In this document: piece by piece, positions 9,443 through 20,995 of the stretch | How positions within the stretch are numbered: the first letter of the stretch is position 1 | Layout of the letters: every line of letters starts with the position of its first letter | Assembly (NCBI GenBank): GCA_016932695.1 | Contig: JAFGCH010000119.1 | Coordinates: 1 to 36,331 of the forward strand | Length of the DNA: 36,331 bases | Reading direction: 5' to 3' | Source: Acidimicrobiia bacterium | GTDB taxonomy: Bacteria; Actinomycetota; Acidimicrobiia; Spongiisociales; UBA11373 | Made by a program: the position numbers and the translations under genes | The notes under the pieces: generated by a model | What the model was told of the DNA's origin: nothing | What the model saw: the letters and a program-made list of their open reading frames with translations, nothing else | The model's database searches: none

Positions 9443-10567
9443 TCACCGCGAAACGGCCGTCCCTCCCAGCTTGGCTGCCACCGACGCCGCCCCGCGCAGG
9501 GCCGTCCCGTCGGCCCCCACCGCCGAGAAGAGCCGTCGCTCCGCCCGGGCTTCGGCGATCATCCCCGCCAGCAGCCCCGCCCAGCCCAGGGGCGGGTCGA
9601 TGAAAAGGTACACGCTCAGGCTGCCGGGGATGGTGTTGACCTCGTTCAGCCACAGCTCGCCCCCCTGCTCCAGGAAGTCGATGCGCGCCACCGAGCGCAG
9701 CGCCGCCAGGCCCGCCACGGCACGCGCCATCTCGCGGATCCGCTCTGCCGTGGCGTCGGGGATCCGGGCGGGAAGCTCTCGCGGGGAAGAGACCAGCCCC
9801 CCGCCCCCGGGGGGGAGGTACTTCTGGGCGTAGGAGTAGATGCCACCACCCCCTTTGCGCTCGGGACGCTCGATGGCCGACAACTCCACCCGCGGGTAGG
9901 TCCGCACCGCCACGTTGAGGTCGCGCCCCTCGACCAGGAAGGGCTCCGCTACTGCGCCGTCTTTCAGGAGCGGGCTCGAGGCGGCCAGGGCCCGCGCCGT
10001 AGCCGCGTCCTCCACCACCTCGATCCCGAGCGAGGAGCCGCCGAAGCGCGGCTTGACCACGTAGGGCGGGCCGAAGGGCAATGCTTCGGTGTCGGGGGTC
10101 ACCGCCACCCGGGGCAGCGTAGGCAGCCCCGCCTGGGCCGCCAGGGCGGTGAAGGCCAGCTTGTCCATGCCCAGGTAGGCCCCTACCAGGCTGGGGCCGG
10201 TGTAGGCCAGGCCGGCCAGATCGAAGGCGGCTTGGATGGTGCCGTCCTCCCCCGGCCCGCCGTGGCAGCAGTTGACCACCACGTCGAGAGGCATCGGCCT
10301 GTTCTTGCGCCGGAAGCCCCCCTCCGGCTGGGCCACCAGGTCCAGCGGGGTGGCGCCCCGGGGCACTCCCTCGGCGAAGGCGACTGCTTCCAAGCGGGCG
10401 TCCACCGCGTAGAACTCCCCGGCCTTCGACCAGTAGAGGGCGGTCACTTCTTTGGCCGCCGCCGAGAGCGACCGGGCCGCCTGGAGCCCGGTGAGGATGC
10501 TGATGTCGTGCTCGGGGGAAGGCCCACCGAACAACACGCCCGGCCTGAGGTCGCTGGGGATGGTCAT
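9443..10567 (-). CDS. ddl: D-alanine--D-alanine ligase
   Basis: A 374-residue ATP-grasp ligase that joins two D-alanines for the peptidoglycan stem peptide. Visible motifs: N-terminal LFGGPSPEHDISILTG, the HGGPGEDG loop, YVVKPRFGGSSLGI for ATP binding, and the metal/ATP site LNEVNTIPG near the C terminus. D-Ala versus D-Lac/D-Ser specificity cannot be decided by eye. ATG 10567 is preferred over an in-frame TTG 30 bp upstream, although no strong ribosome binding site is present. It follows the MurF-like ligase gene by 43 bp on the same strand, and its product dipeptide is what a MurF enzyme uses, so the two make a coherent operon. Confidence 0.92.
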   Translation of the reverse strand: MTIPSDLRPGVLFGGPSPEHDISILTGLQAARSLSAAAKEVTALYWSKAGEFYAVDARLEAVAFAEGVPRGATPLDLVAQPEGGFRRKNRPMPLDVVVNCCHGGPGEDGTIQAAFDLAGLAYTGPSLVGAYLGMDKLAFTALAAQAGLPTLPRVAVTPDTEALPFGPPYVVKPRFGGSSLGIEVVEDAATARALAASSPLLKDGAVAEPFLVEGRDLNVAVRTYPRVELSAIERPERKGGGGIYSYAQKYLPPGGGGLVSSPRELPARIPDATAERIREMARAVAGLAALRSVARIDFLEQGGELWLNEVNTIPGSLSVYLFIDPPLGWAGLLAGMIAEARAERRLFSAVGADGTALRGAASVAAKLGGTAVSR

Positions 10568-10610: not shown

Positions 10611-12119
10611 TCACGGATAGTGGTCGGGGAGGTCGTTCTCGTACAGGGCGCCGTCTCCCTCCCCCAGGTTGGCCCCCACCCAGGCCACCGCCTCGGCGCG
10701 GTGAGCCACCGCCTGCAGGCGGGCAGTCCCCCCGCGCCCTCCGCCGAGCAAGGCCCGCCGGTTGGTTCGTCCCACCACGATCAGGTCGGACACCCGCGCC
10801 GCGGCGAAGGCGGCGAAAGACCGGTTCTCCTCGGCCTGGAGCCGGCCCAACTCCACCATCCCGGGGGTCACCACCACGGTGCGCCCCGGCACCGCCGCCA
10901 CCAGGCGCTCCACCGCCGCCCGGGCCCCGGCCGGATTGGAGTTGTAGGTGTCGTCGATGATGAGGACTCCCGAGGGGCTGCGCCCGGCCACCCCGCGGTG
11001 CTGGGGCCGGGGCAGGTCCGCCAGGCGCTCCCCGATGCGAGAGACCGGGATCCCCAGGGTGTACGCCACCCCGGCGGCACAAGCCACGTTCATAGGGAAC
11101 ACGTCGTCCGCCGCCAGCCGCCCCGCCTCCTCTCCTACCACCCGCACCACCAGAGACCCCCCCTCGGCAAGCACGCTCACCTCGGCCTCGCCCGACTCGC
11201 CCGAGCAGCGCACCACCTGCAGACCCGAGCGCCCCTCCACCGCCGCCCGCACGCGGGGGTCGTCCCAATTCACCACGGCGACCCGGGCACCGCCGAGGAT
11301 CTCGCTTTTCGCCCGGGCGATGGCCTCCAGCGACCCAAAGCGCTCCAGGTGGACCGGCCCCACCGCGGTGATCACCGCCACCTCCGGAGGGATCCAGCGG
11401 CACAGGTCGGCGATCTCTCCCGGCCCGTAGGTGCCCATCTCGGCGATCAGGACCTGCACCCCGGGGTCGAGGCCCTCATTGATCGCCCTGGCCAGGCCGA
11501 GGCGGTTGTTGAAGGAAGCCGGGGAGGCGATCACGTGGCGGCTGCCCGCCAGCAAGTGGCGGGTGTACTCCTTGGTGCTCGTCTTGCCGAACGACCCGGT
11601 GATGGCTACCACGGTGGGCGCGGCCGAGCGCAAGCGGCGCGCCGCCCGGTCGACGAACGCCCGGCTCAGCCGTCGTTCCAGCGGGGCCGTCAGCACCAGC
11701 CCGAGGTCCACCGCCTGGGGCACCAGCAGGGAGGCGGCGATCGCCCCGGCGGTGAAAGACCCGGCGGCGAAGCCGGCCACCGCCAGGGCAGCGAAGGGCA
11801 CCGCCGACGCCGCCGCCAGGCGGCGCAGCCGCGGCGTCCAGGCCAGCCGGGCGGTCCGCCCCCGGAGCCCGAGACCGAGCGGCCAGGCGAGCAGGCCGGC
11901 GGCGGCGGGGAAGCAAGCGTACGGCCACCAGGCGACGGCCACCGCCGTCCCGACGGCGGCGGCTCCCAGGACCAGGTTCGCCGCCGTCGCGCCCAGCCAG
12001 CGCCCCGCGAAGCGGCTCACCGACCCTGAGATGTAGTGCTCCCGCTGGGCCACCCGCAACCAGCGGAGGGCGGCGGCGAGGCCGGCGGCCAGCACTATCC
12101 AGGGAGCAGCAGCCGTCAC
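10611..12119 (-). CDS. Membrane-anchored MurF-like Mur ligase
   Basis: A 502-residue Mur ligase. The central ATPase has the P-loop ITGSFGKTSTKEY (172-184), EMGTYGPGEIADLC (MurF-like), and the C-terminal MurF signature IIDDTYNSNPAGARAAVERL. Instead of the usual soluble N-terminal UDP-binding domain it begins with about 165 residues containing about four hydrophobic helices (about 5-20, 45-65, 66-85, 103-143) and the loop QREHYISGSVSRFAGRW. It should ligate D-Ala-D-Ala or a similar dipeptide to a peptidoglycan precursor at the membrane. GTG 12119 is set by a GAGG nine bases upstream and a 4-bp overlap (GTGA) with the preceding hydrolase gene. Whether it replaces classical MurF or acts on a lipid-linked substrate is unknown. 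Confidence 0.85.
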   Translation of the reverse strand: MTAAAPWIVLAAGLAAALRWLRVAQREHYISGSVSRFAGRWLGATAANLVLGAAAVGTAVAVAWWPYACFPAAAGLLAWPLGLGLRGRTARLAWTPRLRRLAAASAVPFAALAVAGFAAGSFTAGAIAASLLVPQAVDLGLVLTAPLERRLSRAFVDRAARRLRSAAPTVVAITGSFGKTSTKEYTRHLLAGSRHVIASPASFNNRLGLARAINEGLDPGVQVLIAEMGTYGPGEIADLCRWIPPEVAVITAVGPVHLERFGSLEAIARAKSEILGGARVAVVNWDDPRVRAAVEGRSGLQVVRCSGESGEAEVSVLAEGGSLVVRVVGEEAGRLAADDVFPMNVACAAGVAYTLGIPVSRIGERLADLPRPQHRGVAGRSPSGVLIIDDTYNSNPAGARAAVERLVAAVPGRTVVVTPGMVELGRLQAEENRSFAAFAAARVSDLIVVGRTNRRALLGGGRGGTARLQAVAHRAEAVAWVGANLGEGDGALYENDLPDHYP

Positions 12120-12862
12120 GGGGCAGCCTCGGGCGGCCCGGCGAGCAGTTCGCCTATGGCCTCGGCCAGCTCCCGGGAGGCTTCGGTGGGGATGTCGTGA
12201 CCCAACCCGGGGAGCACGGTGAGCTTGCCGGAGGGGATCAGGGTCAGGGCCCGGGTGGCCACCGTGGGCGGGACCACCCGGTCGTCTTCTCCCCATACCA
12301 GCCGCACCGGGCAGGCCAGCGCGGTCAACTGAGGCTCGTAGGACTCTGCGACCACCCGCACCAGGGTTTGGCGCATCACTCCCGAGGCGGCGCGGTAGTC
12401 GGCCGACCCGTAGCGCCGTCGCGCTTCCTCCAGCATCCGCTCGGGTACCAGGTGCCACCGGCGCGCCAGGCGAATGGCTCGGAAACGAGGCGACACACGG
12501 GCATGGGCTCCCGGGATACGTACGAGCGGCACCCCCGCCAGCACCAGGCCGCGCACCCGCTCCGGGCGTCGCGCGGCCAAGTGCACCGCCACCCGCCCCC
12601 CAAAGGAGTGCCCCGCCAGCACCAGCGGGGCCGGGAACGACTCCAGCGCCGGTTCCACGAGCGCGGCGTACCCCGCGGCTCCCATCGGAGATAGGGGAGG
12701 TGAGGAAGCACCGAAACCGGGGAGGTCAAGTGCCACGCCACCGGTGATCGAGAGCACGGCGGCCCAGTCGCGCCGGTCCCGCCCCCAGCCGTGCAGAGCG
12801 AGCACCGGCGCCTCAGCGCCGAAGCGCTCGCCGAACAGGCCACCGATCAGTTCCAGGGGCAT
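12116..12862 (-). CDS. Alpha/beta hydrolase
   Basis: A 248-residue alpha/beta-hydrolase fold enzyme. The nucleophile elbow is AGHSFGG, the acid is in VWGEDDRVVP and the histidine in LPGLGHDIP; the oxyanion-region LALHGWGRDRRDW is present. The chosen ATG at 12862 has GGAGG seven bases upstream; the longer upstream frame is arginine-rich and not convincing. The stop overlaps the GTG of the MurF-like ligase, giving an operon hydrolase, ligase, ddl. It could be an esterase, or a lipid or peptide hydrolase in envelope metabolism; the specific reaction cannot be assigned. Confidence 0.88.
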   Translation of the reverse strand: MPLELIGGLFGERFGAEAPVLALHGWGRDRRDWAAVLSITGGVALDLPGFGASSPPLSPMGAAGYAALVEPALESFPAPLVLAGHSFGGRVAVHLAARRPERVRGLVLAGVPLVRIPGAHARVSPRFRAIRLARRWHLVPERMLEEARRRYGSADYRAASGVMRQTLVRVVAESYEPQLTALACPVRLVWGEDDRVVPPTVATRALTLIPSGKLTVLPGLGHDIPTEASRELAEAIGELLAGPPEAAP

Positions 12863-12986: not shown

Positions 12987-15002
12987 TCACAACTCGCAGG
13001 ACTTCTCGTCCTCGCCCACGCAGGTGTCGGTACCGGCTCCGCCGTTCACAATGTCGGTGCCAGGGCCGCCGTCCAGTTCGTCGTTGCCCGCCTCGCCGAA
13101 GAGGCGATCGTTGCCGCCCCCACCGTCCAGCTGATCGTGGCCGTCGCCGCCGTAGATCCTGTCGGCTCCGGTGCCGCCCGCTACCTGGTCGTCGCCCCCT
13201 CCGGCGCAGACGGTGTCGTTGCCGCCGAGGGCGTCGATCTGGTCGTCTCCTCCGAAGGCCACGATCACGTCGGCCTTGGACGTGCCGCTGATCTCGTCGG
13301 CGTCACCCGAGCCCAGGATGGTCGCCGCCTTCCCGTTACAGGTGTGCATCGCCGGAGGGGCCCCCAGATCGAGGATGCCCTTGCCCGAGTCGTTGTCCAT
13401 TCCCTTGGGAGGAAGGTCCCGGGTGTGCGCCTTGATGGCCGCCCGCAACTGGGCCGGGGTGTAGTCGGGGAAGGCGGTCAGCAGCAGTGCGGCTGCGCCG
13501 GCCACGTGGGGCGCCGACGACGAGGTGCCGAAGAAGCCGCCCGGGTAACTGAAGCTGTCCGTTCCGTCGTAGCCGGCCACGTCGGGCTTCTTGGCCCCGC
13601 TCAGCGTCGGGCCGCGCGAGGAGAAGGGCTCCACCTGGCTGTTCTGCCAGAAGACCGCCCCCACGCTGAGCACCTTGGTCACGGTGGCGGCGTCGTTCAG
13701 GCTGTGGGTGGCCACCGGCGGATCCACCGGGTCCAGGAGCTGGGTGTTGGTAGGAAAGAAGAACACGTCGAGCTCCGGAGTACCCACCGTGCCCCCCACA
13801 GGGCCCTGGACGGCGATGTGATAGGTCTGCACCTCGCCGGTGGTGTTCTGGAACACCACGTGCTCCTTAGGCGGCTGGGTGCCGTCCTGCGGGTCGGTGG
13901 ACCAATCCACCGGGACCATCCCGCCTCCCTGGTACAGGAAGAGGTCCAGATTGTTGGTGGCTGCCGGCCACTCGTGCCAGCGCAGGTAGATGTCGGCGGT
14001 GGCGCCGTCGACCAGCTGAAAGCTGAACCCTTCATCGTGGGTGAAGAACTCGTGGACGCCGTCGGCGCCCCAGTCGTCGGTGTAGGGCCCGCCCCAGTGG
14101 TTGAGGGCGTAGTTCCCCGCCGAGTTGATCCAGGTGACCCCCTTCTTCTCCGCCTTGTTGGAGTAGCCCTTCAGGGTGCCCGTGCCGTCGCCCGGATAGG
14201 CGGCGACGAAGCCCAGCGAGGCGTTGAAGATGTCGATGCCGTTGGCTCCCATCCAGGTGATCGCCTTGGCGAAGTCGAGGCTGTTGTCGATGCAGACCAG
14301 CCACAGGTCGGCATCGGGGGCCAGGTCGTAGATCACCTCGGCCACCGCCGTGCCGTGCGGGGTCCCCCCGCCGGCCCCGTCCAGGCCGGCATCGCAGTAG
14401 TTCTTGGTCTTGAAGCCCGCCGGGAGGTCGCCGGCGCTCTTCGCCGCGGCGCGCCCCTCGAAACCGGAATCGACCACGGCAACGTCCACCCCCTGCCCGC
14501 GGAATCCGGCGGCATGCCAGTCGTCGGCATTCATGAGGGCCACGCCCTGGCTGGTGTGGGCCGCTTCCGGCAGCACCGGAGCGGGCGATTGCACCCACCA
14601 CACCGCGCGGCTCTCGCTCAAGCGGCGCAGGCTGCCCAGGGGCATCTCGGCGCCCACCATCCCGGGCGCCGTCGCCACCACCAGGCCGCCGGCGGCTCGC
14701 ACCGCGGCCGCCGCGGCGGCATCGTCGCCCGAGGTGAGGATCTCCACCTCGACACGGCCCCCGCGCACGAACAGGCGGCGATCCGTCGCCACCTGCATCG
14801 CCGCGTCCCGGCCCCCGGAGAGGAAGGCGTCCTCCAATGCAGCCAGGCCACCTTCGAGGTGCCCCGGGCCGTCCTTCGGCGCGTCGTACGGCGCGAAGTC
14901 CTGCCCCGTGCCCTCCGACCCAAACGCCGCTACGGGCAGGAGCGCCACCACCAGAAGCACCGCCAACAGGGCCAGGATCCTTCGGCCGTTCATCCGTTTC
15001 AC
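12987..15002 (-). CDS. Secreted subtilase (S8 family) with C-terminal RTX calcium-binding repeats
   Basis: A 671-residue exported serine protease. A signal peptide (about 1-29, hydrophobic ALLAVLLVVALLPVAAFG) is followed by a propeptide-like region, then the S8 catalytic domain: Asp178 in VAVVDSGFEG, His216 in TPHGTAVAEV, oxyanion Asn297 in NSAGN, and Ser494 in FGTSSSAPHVAG. A beta-sandwich-like insertion lies between the Asn and Ser motifs (about 320-425). Residues 555-671 are about eleven RTX nonapeptides (GGxGxDxLx) framed by Cys555, a Cys 44 residues later, and a terminal C-x7-C. GTG 15002 has GGGAGG five bases upstream. It is divergent from the first CapA-RTX gene (108 bp between starts). 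Probably calcium-stabilised and active outside the cell; substrate unknown. Confidence 0.9.
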   Translation of the reverse strand: MKRMNGRRILALLAVLLVVALLPVAAFGSEGTGQDFAPYDAPKDGPGHLEGGLAALEDAFLSGGRDAAMQVATDRRLFVRGGRVEVEILTSGDDAAAAAAVRAAGGLVVATAPGMVGAEMPLGSLRRLSESRAVWWVQSPAPVLPEAAHTSQGVALMNADDWHAAGFRGQGVDVAVVDSGFEGRAAAKSAGDLPAGFKTKNYCDAGLDGAGGGTPHGTAVAEVIYDLAPDADLWLVCIDNSLDFAKAITWMGANGIDIFNASLGFVAAYPGDGTGTLKGYSNKAEKKGVTWINSAGNYALNHWGGPYTDDWGADGVHEFFTHDEGFSFQLVDGATADIYLRWHEWPAATNNLDLFLYQGGGMVPVDWSTDPQDGTQPPKEHVVFQNTTGEVQTYHIAVQGPVGGTVGTPELDVFFFPTNTQLLDPVDPPVATHSLNDAATVTKVLSVGAVFWQNSQVEPFSSRGPTLSGAKKPDVAGYDGTDSFSYPGGFFGTSSSAPHVAGAAALLLTAFPDYTPAQLRAAIKAHTRDLPPKGMDNDSGKGILDLGAPPAMHTCNGKAATILGSGDADEISGTSKADVIVAFGGDDQIDALGGNDTVCAGGGDDQVAGGTGADRIYGGDGHDQLDGGGGNDRLFGEAGNDELDGGPGTDIVNGGAGTDTCVGEDEKSCEL

Positions 15003-15110
15003 ATCGGCCTCCCAGGTCAGTCGGCGCCAGTGTCGCAGGTTCACCGGCCCGAAGGTGCCGAGATCCGGGCAAGAGGCGGGTAGCGTGTGAGCCATCGACG
15101 AAGGAGGCTT

Positions 15111-16712
15111 GTGCGGGCCGCGCGGTATCGGGCGCTATCTCTGCTGCTCCTGCTGCCCGCCGCGCTGGCCCCCGCGGCGGCTGCAGAGGAGCCGCTGCGT
15201 TCCTTCACCATCGCCGCCACCGGGGACATCCTCATCCACGGCATGGTGGCCCAGGCGGCCGCGGCCTATGCCGGGGGCGACGGCTACGACTTCACTCCCA
15301 TGCTGGCCCCCACCGAGCCCTGGATCGCCGAGGCCGATCTCGCCATCTGCCACCTAGAGGGGAACCTCTCGCCGACCAACACCGGCCTCTCCTACTACCC
15401 GCGCTTCATCGGCCCCCGCGAGGTGGCCGAGGCTATTGCCGCCATCGGCTACGACACCTGCTCCCTGGCGGGCAACCACGCCCTCGACGGCGGCCGGCGC
15501 GGACTAGAGGACACCATCACCCTGCTCGAGGAGCAGGGCATCGCCCACGAAGGCACGGCGCGCAGTGAGGAGGAGCGCCTTCCCGGCTTCTACGAGGTGA
15601 AGGGAGTCAAGGTCGCCCACCTCGACTACACCTACGGCACCAACGGGCTGCCTCGCTCCGCCCCCTACGAGGTGAACATCATCGATCGCGACGCCATCCT
15701 CGCCGACGCCCGTTGGGCCCGGGAGCAGGGAGCCGAGTTCGTGATCCTCACCCTGCACTGGGGCATCGAGAAGCATCATCCCCCTACCGGCACCCAGGCC
15801 GCCCTGGCCGAGGAGCTGCTGGGCTCGCCCGACATCGACCTCATCCTGGGCAGCCACGCCCACGTGGTGCAGCCCGTCGATCGGGTGAACGGCAAGGTGG
15901 TCGTCTACGGCATGGGCAACCACCTCTCCAACCAGAACTCCATCTGGGGGCCGGACTACTACTCCACCGAAGACGGCCTGATGGTGCACCTGACGGTGAC
16001 CGAGCAGCCCGACGGCAGCTTCGCCACCACCCGAGTGCAGTACACCCCCACCCTGGTGGAGTTCCGCAGCTATCGGGTGCTTCCCATCGCCTGGGCATTG
16101 GCTGCGGGCGAGGGCGACCCGGCCCTGCTGCAAGCCTCCTGGGAGCGCACCGTGGCCAACGTCACCATGCTGGGCACCGAGGGCCTGGAACTCAGCCCGG
16201 CGGCCTGGGAGCCGCTCTCCTGCCGCGGGCTGGCGGCCACCGTGGTGGGCACCGCCGGCGACGACGTGCTGGTGGGCACCCCCGGCGACGACGTGATCGT
16301 GGGCCGGGGCGGCGACGACGTGATCCTGGGACTCGAGGGCAACGACCTGGTGTGCGGCGGTGACGGCGACGACGCCATCTGGGGCGGGGGCGGCTGGGAT
16401 ACCCTCTGGGGCGGGGAAGGAGCCGACGTCCTCTACGGCGGCACCGGGCGGGACCGCCTGTACGGCGAAGAGGGGAACGACACGCTGTGGGGCGGGCCCG
16501 ACGGCGACGCCCTGTACGGCGGCGACGGCGACGACACCCTGCTGGGCCATGAAGGAGACGACCTGCTGGTCGCCGGCCCTGGGATCGACCACCTGTGGGG
16601 CGGGTTCGGGGCCGACACGCTGATAGGGTTCGACCCGGACGACGCCCTGGTGGGTGACGGCACCGACACCTGCAAGATGGGTGCGCTGGTGGTCCCCTGC
16701 CGGGCCTCCTGA
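15111..16712 (+). CDS. CapA-family (PGA_cap) protein fused to C-terminal RTX repeats, copy 1
   Basis: A 533-residue exported protein: signal peptide (1-25, ALSLLLLLPAALAPAAAA), CapA/PgsA metallophosphatase-like domain (about 30-330) with Asp39 in ATGDILIH, HLEGNLSPTNTG, AGNHALDGG (121-123 GNH), TLHWGIE and GSHAHVVQPV, then a linker and about fifteen RTX nonapeptides from Cys371, ending C-x8-C. CapA proteins are linked to poly-gamma-glutamate capsules, but the superfamily covers diverse metallo-phosphoesterases; no capB/capC genes are nearby. GTG 15111 has AAGGAGG just upstream (spacing only 3) and a TAGCGT -10-like box at 15081-15086; GTG 15087 is an alternative. First of three paralogues. 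Confidence 0.85.
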   Translation: MRAARYRALSLLLLLPAALAPAAAAEEPLRSFTIAATGDILIHGMVAQAAAAYAGGDGYDFTPMLAPTEPWIAEADLAICHLEGNLSPTNTGLSYYPRFIGPREVAEAIAAIGYDTCSLAGNHALDGGRRGLEDTITLLEEQGIAHEGTARSEEERLPGFYEVKGVKVAHLDYTYGTNGLPRSAPYEVNIIDRDAILADARWAREQGAEFVILTLHWGIEKHHPPTGTQAALAEELLGSPDIDLILGSHAHVVQPVDRVNGKVVVYGMGNHLSNQNSIWGPDYYSTEDGLMVHLTVTEQPDGSFATTRVQYTPTLVEFRSYRVLPIAWALAAGEGDPALLQASWERTVANVTMLGTEGLELSPAAWEPLSCRGLAATVVGTAGDDVLVGTPGDDVIVGRGGDDVILGLEGNDLVCGGDGDDAIWGGGGWDTLWGGEGADVLYGGTGRDRLYGEEGNDTLWGGPDGDALYGGDGDDTLLGHEGDDLLVAGPGIDHLWGGFGADTLIGFDPDDALVGDGTDTCKMGALVVPCRAS

Positions 16713-16818: not shown

Positions 16819-17148
16819 CTACGGCACCAGCTCGCAGCCGAGTGCGTCCTCGGCGTCGCAGAAGTCGCTGCCGCGGCCGCCGTAGGCTAGGTCGTCGCCG
16901 GGCCCGCCGATCAGGCCCCGGTTGCCGAGAGAGTCGTTGCCCCCCTCCCCGAAGAGCCAATCGTTGCCGCCCCCGCCTACGAGGCGATCGCGCCCCGGGC
17001 CACCGCAGAGCTTGTCGTTGCCCCCCATCCCGTTGATGGTGTCGTTCCCGCCACCGGCGGCTATGACATCGTCACCCGCCGTGCCCACGAGGATGTCGCG
17101 GCCGTCGGTCCCCTGGATGGTCGTATGCGCCGCGCCGCAGATCTCCAT
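16819..17148 (-). CDS. Small RTX calcium-binding protein, in frame behind the beta-domain gene
   Basis: A 109-residue protein made almost entirely of RTX nonapeptides (about nine), with Cys4, Cys48 (C-x43-C) and a terminal C-x7-C, the same cysteine frame as the subtilase and CapA-RTX modules. It has no signal peptide. Its ATG at 17148 follows immediately after the TAG stop (17149-17151) of the upstream secreted gene, in the same reading frame, and M-E-I-C aligns with A-M-H-T-C at the linker/RTX junction of the subtilase. Either it is restarted from the GGAG six bases upstream as a separate protein, or the TAG is a nonsense mutation (or read-through point) in an ancestral secreted fusion. Expected role: calcium-dependent folding or surface attachment. 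Confidence 0.8.
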   Translation of the reverse strand: MEICGAAHTTIQGTDGRDILVGTAGDDVIAAGGGNDTINGMGGNDKLCGGPGRDRLVGGGGNDWLFGEGGNDSLGNRGLIGGPGDDLAYGGRGSDFCDAEDALGCELVP

Positions 17149-17580: not shown

Positions 17581-17688
17581 GGCGATCCTCCCTTCTCCGG
17601 ACAGTCCGCCGGGTACCCTCCCCCAACGGCACGATTCCTGGAATCTAGCCAAAGAGCAAGCCGGGTAACCGCCGCACCGGGATGCTCC

Positions 17689-17717
17689 TTGCGGCTACCC
17701 CGGCCGGTTCCTACGGT
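17689..17717 (+). promoter_or_regulatory. Promoter for leaderless CapA-RTX copy 2
   Basis: TTGCGG (17689-17694) and TACGGT (17712-17717) are separated by exactly 17 bp, matching a primary sigma promoter. The GTG start lies 6 nt after the -10 box, where transcription would begin, so the mRNA is probably leaderless; no ribosome binding site precedes the GTG. Confidence 0.6.
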
Positions 17718-17723
17718 TCTCCC

Positions 17724-19322
17724 GTGCGGCGGCAACTCGCCCTCGTCGCGACGGCACTCCTCCCAACGCTGGCCGCCCTGCCGGCCGCGGCGGCCCCGGC
17801 CGCGCGCTCCTTCACCATTGCCGCCACCGGCGACATCATCGTCCACCGGGCCATAGCCGACGCCGCCCGTATCGCCCCCGGACGCAACGTCTACGACTTT
17901 CGGCCGCTACTGCTCCCCATCGAGCCCTGGATCTCCGATGCCGACTTCGCCCTCTGCCACCTCGAAGGCACCCTCTCCCCCACCAACACCGGCCTCCTCT
18001 ACCAGCACGAGGACGAGCACCCCGCCTACTTCAACGGCCCGCACGAAATGGCCACCGCCCTGATGGCCACCGGTTACGACGCCTGCTCCACCGCCGGAAA
18101 CCACGCTCTCGACCGCGGCCTCACCGGCGTCACCGAGACCCTGGAGGTGCTCGACGCCGCCGGCCTAGGCCATGCGGGCACAGGCCGCGATAACGCCGAG
18201 CGAGAGCCCGTCCTCTACCAGGTCAACGGGGTGCGGGTCGCCCACCTGGCCTACACCCAGGGCACCAACGAGCCGCGCCCAACCGAGGCCCCCTGGGCGG
18301 TGAACGTCATCGACCGCGCCGCCATCCTGGCCGACGCCCGCCGGGCCCGCGAGCAGGGGGCCGAGTTCATCATGGTCAGCCTCCACTGGGGGACGGAGTA
18401 CCAGCAGGCCCTCGACACCTCCCAGACGAGCCTCGCTGCCGCTCTCACCGCCTCGCCCGATATCGACCTCATCCTCGGCCACCACACCCACCTGGTACAG
18501 AGCATCGCCCGGGTCAACGGCAAAGTGGTCGCCTACGGCCTGGGCAACCTGTTGTCCAACATCCGCACGGCGAAGGACGGCACCAAGGCCGGCTCCGAGG
18601 ATGGGGTGATCGTTCACTTGCGCGTCGAAGAGACGGAGAACAGCTTCACCGTCACCGAAGTCACCGTGACCCCCACCTGGGTGGACTGGCAGACCAAGCG
18701 GGCACTCCCGGTGGAGCACACCCTGGCCTACGGCGAGGGCGCGGTGCCCACCGCCGCCCTCCAGGCTTCCCGCGCCCACACCCTGAGGCGCGCCGGCACG
18801 CCGACCGCACTCTCGCCGACCCCGTGGCCCTCCCTGGTGTGCGCCGGCCGGGTGGCCTCCCTCGTGGGCACTGCCGGGCCCGACGTGCTGATGGGCACCC
18901 CGGGTGACGACGTCATCGTGGGCCGAGGCGGGGGCGACATCATCCTGGGAGGCGAGGGCGACGACCTTATCTGCGGGGGCAACGGCGCCGACCTCGTCTG
19001 GGGCGGCCCCGGCGCCGATTCGGCCTACGGAGACCACGGAGACGATTTGCTCTCCGGCGGCGACGGGCCGGACACGCTCCACGGCGGGAGCGGTGCCGAC
19101 CGCTTGGGCGGCGGCGAGTCGGCAGACAGCCTGTACGGCGGGGCGGGCGACGACCTCCTCTCGGGCCAGGCCGGGGGCGACGTCCTGGAGGCCGGCCCCG
19201 GCCGGGACCTCCTGCGCGGCGGCACCGGGGCGGACACCTTGGCCGGCCTGCCGGGCGATCGACTGCAGGGAGATGCCGCCGACTCCTGCCGGGTCATCGG
19301 AGTGGTTGCGCCCTGCGAGTGA
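17724..19322 (+). CDS. CapA-family (PGA_cap) protein fused to C-terminal RTX repeats, copy 2
   Basis: A 532-residue exported paralogue of the CapA-RTX gene at 15111. Signal peptide about 1-24 (LALVATALLPTLAALPAAAAPA); CapA domain with ATGDIIVHRA, HLEGTLSPTNTG, AGNHALDRG, LHWGTEYQ and GHHTHLVQSI; then a linker SPTPWPSLVC opening about fifteen RTX repeats with C-x43-C and terminal C-x8-C. GTG 17724 is chosen because the signal peptide begins there and a well-spaced promoter ends 6 nt upstream. The stop overlaps a potential GTG of the next paralogue (GTGA at 19319-19322), so copy 2 and copy 3 are probably one transcript. Metal-dependent hydrolase activity is inferred; substrate unknown. Confidence 0.85.
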   Translation: MRRQLALVATALLPTLAALPAAAAPAARSFTIAATGDIIVHRAIADAARIAPGRNVYDFRPLLLPIEPWISDADFALCHLEGTLSPTNTGLLYQHEDEHPAYFNGPHEMATALMATGYDACSTAGNHALDRGLTGVTETLEVLDAAGLGHAGTGRDNAEREPVLYQVNGVRVAHLAYTQGTNEPRPTEAPWAVNVIDRAAILADARRAREQGAEFIMVSLHWGTEYQQALDTSQTSLAAALTASPDIDLILGHHTHLVQSIARVNGKVVAYGLGNLLSNIRTAKDGTKAGSEDGVIVHLRVEETENSFTVTEVTVTPTWVDWQTKRALPVEHTLAYGEGAVPTAALQASRAHTLRRAGTPTALSPTPWPSLVCAGRVASLVGTAGPDVLMGTPGDDVIVGRGGGDIILGGEGDDLICGGNGADLVWGGPGADSAYGDHGDDLLSGGDGPDTLHGGSGADRLGGGESADSLYGGAGDDLLSGQAGGDVLEAGPGRDLLRGGTGADTLAGLPGDRLQGDAADSCRVIGVVAPCE

Positions 19323-19375
19323 CGAGGCGAAGCGCGCCTTGCCGGCCGCGGCGGCGTATACCCTGGGCCGGGCAG

Positions 19376-20995
19376 ATGAACCGTCACCTTCCCCGGCACC
19401 TCGCCTTGCTGGCCCTGGCGGCCGCCTTACTGCTTTCGCCCGACGGCGCCCGGGCGGACGGCCTGCGCTCCTTCTCGCTGAGCGCCGCCGGGGACATCCT
19501 CCTCCAACGGCCCATCGCCGATGCCGCCGAAGCCGCCCTGCCCGGAGAGGGCACCTACGACTTCACCTCGCTGCTGCGCGCCGTGGAGCCCTGGATCGCC
19601 GACGCCGACTTCGCCGTGTGCCACCTGGAGAGCACCCTCTCGGCCGACAACACCACCCTGCTGTACGACGAAAGCGGCTGGCCCCGCTTCAGCGGGCCCC
19701 ACGAGGTAGGGGCGGCGCTGGCGGCCGTCGGCTACGACGCCTGCTCCCTGTCGAGCAACCACGCCTGGGACCGCGGTTCAGCCGGCATCGCCGAGACCAT
19801 CGAGGTACTCGACCGCTACGGCATCCTGCACACAGGCACCGCCCGGGCCCCCGACGAGCGCCTGCCCGCCCGCTACGAGATCAACGGCGTCAGCGTGGCC
19901 CACATCTCCTACTCCACGGGGACCAACTTCCGGCCTCTCCCCGCCGGCGGGGAATGGGTGATGAACGTGATGGACCCCGCCGCCATCCTCGCCGACGCCC
20001 GCTGGGCCCGCGAACAGGGGGCCGAGTTCACCATCGTCAGCCTGCACTGGGGCACTCCCTACCAGGCGGCTCCCGATGGGCCCCAACTGGCCGTGGCGGA
20101 GGCCCTCACCGCCTCGCCGGACGTCGACCTGATCCTGGGCCACCATGCCCATATGGTCCAGCCGGTGACGTGGCTCCACGGCAAGCCGGTGGTTTACGGC
20201 ATGGGGGATCTGCTGTCGGGTCTCCACGGCGGGCCCTCCCGGGGCCCCGGTGCCGGCGACGGGATCATGGTGAACCTCACCGTGGCCGAGCAGCCCGGGG
20301 GAGGCTTCGCCGTGAGCGACCTGGCCGTCACCCCCACCTGGGTGGACCCCGCCACCAAGCGGGTGCTCCCCATCGACCACGTTCTCGCCGGCCGGACCGA
20401 CGGCACCCTCGCCTCCCTGCTGCGGGCATCGCGCGCTCTCAGCCTGGAGAGGATCGGCATGCTGGGGGGCGACGCGGCCGTCACTCCCACCCCCTGGCCC
20501 TCGCTGGGCTGCGCCGGGCGGACGGCCACCATCGCCGGTACCGCCGGGCCCGAGGTGCTCGTGGGGACCGCCGGTCCCGACGTCATCGTGGGCCGCGGGG
20601 GGGACGACCTCATCTTCGGCCTCGCCGGGGACGACCTCATCTGCGCCGGAGAGGGCAACGACACCGTGTGGGGCGGCCCGGGCCGGGACACCCTCTACGG
20701 GGAGGCCGGCCACGACCTGTTGTCGGGGGGCAGCGGCCCGGACCAGATCTTCGGCGGAGAAGGCTCGGACCGCCTCGGCGGCGGCGAAGGCGACGACCGC
20801 CTCTTCGGAGATGAGGGCGACGACGTCCTTTCGGGCCACGGCGGCGACGATCTCCTGGATGCCGGACGGGGTCGCGACATCCTCTGGGGCGGCACCGGCG
20901 CCGATCTGCTGATCGCCTCGTCGCCCGCGACGGTGCTCCGGGCCGATGCGGGGGATGCCTGCCGCCTCGAGGCCGCCGCCGTCTCCTGTCCCTGA
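19376..20995 (+). CDS. CapA-family (PGA_cap) protein fused to C-terminal RTX repeats, copy 3
   Basis: A 539-residue exported paralogue, closest to copy 2 in linker and repeat layout. Signal peptide about 1-24 (HLALLALAAALLLSPDGARA); CapA domain with AAGDILLQRP (Gln where copies 1 and 2 have His), HLESTLSADNTT (also changed), SSNHAWDRG, LHWGTPYQ and GHHAHMVQPV; then SPTPWPSLGC-like linker and about sixteen RTX repeats with C-x43-C and terminal C-x8-C. The substitutions suggest altered or relaxed activity relative to copies 1 and 2. ATG 19376 fits the signal peptide; an in-frame GTG at 19319 overlapping the previous stop would add 19 residues. A TATACCCT box lies at 19357-19364. Confidence 0.84.
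   Translation: MNRHLPRHLALLALAAALLLSPDGARADGLRSFSLSAAGDILLQRPIADAAEAALPGEGTYDFTSLLRAVEPWIADADFAVCHLESTLSADNTTLLYDESGWPRFSGPHEVGAALAAVGYDACSLSSNHAWDRGSAGIAETIEVLDRYGILHTGTARAPDERLPARYEINGVSVAHISYSTGTNFRPLPAGGEWVMNVMDPAAILADARWAREQGAEFTIVSLHWGTPYQAAPDGPQLAVAEALTASPDVDLILGHHAHMVQPVTWLHGKPVVYGMGDLLSGLHGGPSRGPGAGDGIMVNLTVAEQPGGGFAVSDLAVTPTWVDPATKRVLPIDHVLAGRTDGTLASLLRASRALSLERIGMLGGDAAVTPTPWPSLGCAGRTATIAGTAGPEVLVGTAGPDVIVGRGGDDLIFGLAGDDLICAGEGNDTVWGGPGRDTLYGEAGHDLLSGGSGPDQIFGGEGSDRLGGGEGDDRLFGDEGDDVLSGHGGDDLLDAGRGRDILWGGTGADLLIASSPATVLRADAGDACRLEAAAVSCP

Follow-up and report, generated by a model that had tools for sequence, protein, structure and literature searches.

In the textbook view, MurF is a soluble enzyme of nearly all bacteria, and it finishes UDP-MurNAc-pentapeptide ahead of the membrane steps of the pathway. 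The window analyzed here, a whole stretch of 36,331 nucleotides from an Acidimicrobiia bacterium (assembly GCA_016932695.1, contig JAFGCH010000119.1), contains a gene for a MurF-like ligase that begins with a membrane domain, and the question it raises is whether this protein, termed mMurF (membrane MurF), does the work of MurF in its host, and on which substrate. No published description of mMurF was found in the literature searched, most subscription journals being outside its scope. The positions of the features are collected in Table 1.

Table 1. Positions in the window of mMurF, its domains and motifs, and the two partner genes.
Feature	Position	Strand	Basis or remarks
mMurF (membrane MurF), 502 aa, GTG start	10611..12119	(-)	ORF, Pfam, TIGR01143, alignment, AlphaFold2
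mMurF membrane domain, residues 1-166, five predicted spans	11622..12119	(-)	no Pfam match
mMurF motif 1, residues 19-42, predicted cytosolic, RWLRVAQREHY...RW	11994..12065	(-)	
mMurF motif 2, residues 80-101, predicted cytosolic, PLGLGLRGRTARLAWTPRLRRL	11817..11882	(-)	
mMurF ATPase (middle) domain, residues 167-340	11100..11621	(-)	P-loop TGSFGKTSTK, SPASFNN, AEMG, GPVHLERF, AKSEI
mMurF C-terminal domain, residues 341-502	10614..11099	(-)	DDTYNSNP, TPGMVELG, mMurF-only tail LYENDLPDHYP
alpha/beta-hydrolase, ATG start	12116..12862	(-)	upstream of mMurF, 4-bp overlap
Ddl, type that occurs with mMurF	9443..10567	(-)	start 43 bp past mMurF

The overlap between the GTG start of mMurF and the stop of the alpha/beta-hydrolase gene is formed by the 4 bp GTGA. 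A chance open reading frame was ruled out by a family of 20 aligned homologues that are 45-77% identical to the window protein. Elsewhere in the window, three CapA-like (PGA_cap) proteins, each with C-terminal RTX calcium-binding repeats, are encoded at 15087-16712, 17682-19322 and 19319-20995 (+), a subtilase with C-terminal RTX repeats at 12987-15095 (-), and a 109-aa protein consisting largely of RTX repeats at 16819-17148 (-).

The first-pass annotation had described MurF-like ATPase and C-terminal signatures, a missing soluble UDP-sugar domain at the N-terminus and membrane helices in its place, and all three observations were borne out. The motifs GSFGKTSTKEY and DDTYNSNPAG are present, and Pfam placed Mur_ligase_M at residues 173-311 (6e-27) and Mur_ligase_C at residues 383-490 (2e-10). 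The signature DSR / LFVA-G / DGH of the UDP-binding domain, which stands in the classical MurF of sister families, was not found before the P-loop; that domain is replaced by about 166 residues with five predicted spans, helical in the AlphaFold2 model and free of any domain match in the Pfam search (residues 1-166). The top sequence match in the PDB was Thermotoga MurF (3e-31). Against the TIGR01143 murF model, the window protein scored 188.7 bits, below the curated cut-off of 288.6, as did the mMurF proteins of the other genomes checked, versus 11.9 bits for the window protein against the NF052464 MurT model. A Foldseek search against the PDB aligned approximately 340-420 columns, corresponding to the ligase part, with fold matches including MurF 4qf5, 4cvm and 3zl8; the 50 matches listed comprised Mur ligases, their relatives and plastid RNA polymerase chains, with no membrane protein among them.

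In the ligase-domain tree, 38 mMurF sequences formed one clade (support 98) beside 20 classical MurF sequences (support 95), with MurE outside. Thirty-six core positions are at least 90% conserved in each of the two groups, and K179, E227, H257, K271, E273, N393, N395 and P396 are conserved in both; among these we take there to be the P-loop Lys, the catalytic Glu, the His and the Lys of the KxE motif. As a bare pattern count, LFVA-G occurs in 19 of 20 classical MurF and in 2 of 38 mMurF sequences. The MurF C-terminal signature D-x-Y/F-N-x-NP is present in the window protein as DDTYNSNP, while the KxSR signature is replaced by ENDL. Differences specific to mMurF in the C-terminal domain are TPGMVELG and the tail ENDLPD, where classical MurF has KASR, and beside the SFNN motif mMurF has GLARxxNE and classical MurF GVPLTLL. 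Since ENDLPD stands in place of KxSR throughout mMurF, part of the active site has probably been remodelled. With classical MurF (TIGR01143, EC 6.3.2.10; PDB 4qf5, 4cvk, 3zl8), mMurF has in common the middle and C-terminal domains, the P-loop, the catalytic Glu/His/Lys and D-x-Y/F-N-x-NP, and, by replacement, apparently the same cellular task, whereas it differs in its tail, has a multi-span membrane domain and no UDP-MurNAc-binding domain, and is encoded outside the dcw cluster, adjoining its own ddl and hydrolase genes. As several defining features that were tested are lacking, the window protein is not filed under classical MurF; by its sequence it is set apart, a sister form that would do MurF's job.

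The genome of the window (95.5% complete, 161 contigs) encodes six Mur_ligase_M proteins, named from their sequences as MurE, MurD, MurC, MurT, FolC and mMurF, and the MurT gene adjoins gatD. In its dcw cluster, ftsI, murE, mraY and murD are consecutive, with murE directly followed by mraY. No murF was found between murE and mraY in this genome, G292 or G065, and there is no room for it in the latter two, while murF occupies this place in G126 and G246. Nor did searches with PF08245 and TIGR01143 find a second, classical murF in the genome of the window. In the first-pass annotation, the absence of any other murF, combined with activity on soluble UDP-MurNAc-tripeptide, was to make the protein just a tethered MurF; the absence, one half of that combination, is what the search of the genome returned. 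At 95.5% completeness, this absence is judged mainly from the pattern over many genomes.

Among 59 relatives searched with the window protein, 31 had mMurF, 26 had classical MurF, none had both and 2 (92% and 56% complete) had neither. The mMurF proteins of the 31 relatives showed 47-77% identity over nearly the full length or were split or cut copies, and the classical MurF proteins of the 26 showed 31-39% identity to the window protein, mostly in the ligase domains. A single-protein search of this kind nearly misses divergent classical MurF (G107, G126); 26 of the genomes were therefore also checked with TIGR01143, the only model by which the copies in G107 and G126 came to light as classical MurF. 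Genomes without either type were G030 (92% complete), G043 (56%) and G128, and G086 gave a weak match only. Across the class, approximately 62 of 149 genomes have mMurF, with the same separation from classical MurF. An assembly gap as the cause of the missing murF was ruled out, as the pattern extends over dozens of genomes more than 90% complete, including G292 (100%). Given that no other murF is found in the genome and that relatives have one type or the other and never both, the replacement of classical MurF by mMurF in many Acidimicrobiia is well supported by these comparisons, and the window protein is very probably the D-Ala-D-Ala-adding ligase that stands in for MurF.

The coupling to a hydrolase and the downstream ddl, also proposed in the first reading of the sequence, recur at related loci: in the best 80 named loci listed, an alpha/beta-hydrolase gene lies upstream of mMurF in 80, and the order alpha/beta-hydrolase, mMurF, ddl is found in 71. 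The three-gene order is also retained in family f41, G292, G065 and the small-genome family f12. Identity to the window Ddl is 52-62% in relatives with mMurF (87% in the sister genome G001) versus 32-38% in relatives with classical MurF, and a close hydrolase (E <1e-40) was detected in every one of the 31 genomes with mMurF; the 26 with classical MurF had none, their best value being 6e-14. The Ddl type and the hydrolase switch likewise in the contrasts G292/G246/G403 and G065/G107/G126, at lower similarity. In family f7 (G019, G026, G032, G039, G046, G051, G057), ddl is on another contig and still of the mMurF type, so the pairing of mMurF with its Ddl does not come from linkage alone. Because the Ddl type and the hydrolase switch with mMurF at the switches examined, the hydrolase, mMurF and Ddl are, to judge from these genomes, one replaceable set. 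G002, which has classical MurF and a classical-type ddl, also contains an extra mMurF-type ddl fragment (53%) at a contig end (C36:9-401), either contamination or a remnant.

A contig scan for mMurF, covering the best 80 matches, returned contigs nearly all named Acidimicrobiia or Actinomycetota, and those with mMurF in the Acidimicrobiia include Acidimicrobiaceae, Candidatus Microthrix and the marine MED-G groups. Beyond the class, mMurF is present in family f41 and in G292 (f70); G246 and G403, which are related to G292, carry the classical type. Genus g46 is mixed, with mMurF in G065 and the classical type in G107 and G126. Among the members of family f1 that were sampled, mMurF is confined to g1, the genus of the window. 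Similar proteins may exist in Clostridia as well. Spread by plasmids or viruses was considered and rejected, as the plasmid matches listed were to ligase domains only, with classical murF where annotated, and no mMurF was found in the viral contigs searched. At least four changes between the two MurF types are needed to explain the MraY tree. Since g1 lies within the classical family f1 in this tree (support 99 and 95) but has an mMurF that falls with those of f4 and f5 in the ligase-domain tree (support 82), acquisition of the hydrolase/mMurF/Ddl set by transfer is the most likely reading of the two trees, with differential loss as the alternative.

An AlphaFold2 model of mMurF built from 20 homologues (pLDDT 90.6, pTM 0.85) has helices at residues 5-26, 46-61, 66-78, 96-118 and 122-166, with the Mur-ligase fold starting from residue 169. 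Residues 17-45, 79-101 and 141-166 contain 5, 6 and 7 Lys/Arg, respectively, the first two values being sums of neighbouring stretches, and the short outer segments contain none. This positive-inside charge distribution predicts an N-out topology with five spans and the ligase part in the cytosol. The alignment of 38 mMurF sequences (two classes and G292) has six invariant residues, Q25, E27, Y29, W41, T95 and R97, all of them in predicted cytosolic segments; V23, L92 and P146 are almost invariant. The loop QREHYISGS, previously noted as conserved-looking, is conserved in part: QREHY is invariant in the Acidimicrobiia set and ISGS varies. Positions conserved at 90% or more make up a share of 0.19 in cytosolic motif 1 and 0.13 in motif 2, compared with 0.21 and 0.22 for the catalytic domains, while no position of helices 2-3 reaches 90% in the 38 rows.

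The mMurF of G065 (L138:2068-3483) and of family f41 (L149-L157) lacks helices 2-3 and retains both QxExY and TxR; judging from these sequences, the protein can do without two of its five helices. That six residues are invariant though the number of helices varies argues for the membrane domain being a working site, more than a tether, and the conserved polar residues on the predicted cytosolic face suggest the binding of a ligand or a protein. G096 (family f23), which has a complete mMurF, additionally encodes a 345-aa paralogue (L140:1911-2945, (-)) in which the C-terminal end (tail GDMPDYYP) and a membrane domain resembling that of mMurF (RVAQGERC) are kept but an ATPase domain is not recognisable.

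Concerning the mechanism, the conserved catalytic residues imply that the mMurF core would activate the stem tripeptide with ATP and join the dipeptide as MurF does, with D-Ala-D-Ala supplied by the Ddl of the set. The membrane domain would stand in for the UDP-binding domain, and its QxExY...W and LxxTxR motifs would most likely hold the pyrophosphate or the sugar of a MurNAc-tripeptide carried on undecaprenyl (lipid I or II), which would place the addition of D-Ala-D-Ala at the membrane and later than the MraY step. The membrane domain, together with the dedicated Ddl and hydrolase, suggests this location for the step. A precedent is MurT of the MurT/GatD lipid II isoglutaminyl synthase, which, like mMurF, is a Mur ligase without the N-terminal UDP domain (PMC6113224, PMC6085368, PMC3266927) and acts on lipid I and II, not on the UDP precursor (PMC6085368, PMC3266927). 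When MurF or MurE binds its UDP substrate, the pyrophosphate sits where the N-terminal and middle domains meet, and for lipid II this boundary may mark the exit of the substrate from the membrane, where a UDP domain is unneeded and would probably clash (PMC6113224). The two proteins differ in that MurT amidates with GatD, whereas mMurF, which resembles MurF more closely, has a membrane domain and no GatD and neighbours a hydrolase gene and ddl with no adjacent gatD, the MurT/GatD pair of the same genome being separate. Based on the MurT precedent and on the membrane domain occupying the place of the UDP domain in the chain, lipid I- or lipid II-tripeptide may be the substrate of mMurF; by this analogy, we regard a lipid-linked acceptor as evenly balanced.

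The motifs could instead bind the UDP pyrophosphate or a partner protein. A membrane-held MurF would then still use soluble UDP-MurNAc-tripeptide, with its membrane domain docked to MraY or MurG, and we consider this reading a serious possibility, if a somewhat doubtful one. It preserves the standard order of the pathway, and it suits a protein that is the sole candidate for adding D-Ala-D-Ala and was swapped with classical MurF repeatedly on the MraY tree while MraY stayed visibly unchanged. No MraY signature separating mMurF genomes from classical genomes was found among 24 of 29 MraY sequences read, so the acceptance of a tripeptide precursor by MraY finds no support there. MurT, moreover, could replace MurE on the UDP precursor in vitro (data not shown there; PMC3266927), which makes a soluble substrate possible for mMurF too. 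However, the UDP-binding signature is absent from mMurF, another surface would be needed to bind UDP, and MurT, the closest functional analogue without a UDP domain, prefers lipid-linked substrates. Just a tethered MurF also fits less well with motifs nearly as conserved as the catalytic domains while the number of helices varies, with the remodelled C-terminal motifs, and with the exchange of Ddl and hydrolase together with mMurF.

Beyond the choice of acceptor, the set could make a different end of the stem peptide, the Ddl forming a product other than D-Ala-D-Ala, mMurF adding it by way of an altered dipeptide side and the hydrolase removing the usual ending like VanX/VanY. The joint change of Ddl type and mMurF, the remodelling from KASR to ENDL and the intact hydrolase triad would agree with this. 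Ser85, Asp193 and His221 of the hydrolase are conserved in 98-99 of 99 homologues, so the enzyme is probably active; a role in precursor editing or recycling is our guess. Yet the window Ddl has conserved Glu25, Ser185 and Tyr256, which, from knowledge of DdlB, we take to be the residues of D-Ala-D-Ala ligases, and Tyr256 is kept in 85 of 85 cassette Ddl proteins. Neither a D-lactate dehydrogenase nor a serine racemase was observed as part of the conserved unit, and a survey of 216 Acidimicrobiales and 214 Actinomarinales assemblies found no van genes (PMC8698665), which leaves a different ending improbable. Van-type clusters (vanHAX plus murF; PMC8698665) resemble the present set in combining a ddl-type ligase with murF, whereas no VanH or VanX was seen here, the Ddl looks like a D-Ala-D-Ala type, and the mMurF set replaces housekeeping genes that Van sets supplement. 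Finally, an accessory Mur-like ligase for another polymer, as some Mur-family ligases are, with the true MurF missed or an unrelated protein, would suit the score under the MurF cut-off but is very improbable in view of the mutual exclusion with classical MurF, its occurrence alongside the single close Ddl of every genome searched, the sister position to MurF in the tree, and the presence of MurC, D, E and mraY with murF missing from the dcw cluster.

Taken as a whole, the preferred account, a membrane MurF with its own Ddl and hydrolase that replaces MurF and adds D-Ala-D-Ala to a lipid-linked tripeptide, stands in our estimation at about an even chance. Its extension, in which the last stem-peptide step lies behind MraY in many Acidimicrobiia and some other Actinomycetota, with MraY making lipid I-tripeptide, mMurF adding D-Ala-D-Ala with a dedicated Ddl and hydrolase, and the set exchanged several times, falls just short of that. 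If this account is true, the order of the peptidoglycan precursor pathway may not be fixed, and MurF, Ddl and the hydrolase would have been exchanged jointly several times; mMurF would be expected to escape inhibitors directed against the UDP site of classical MurF.
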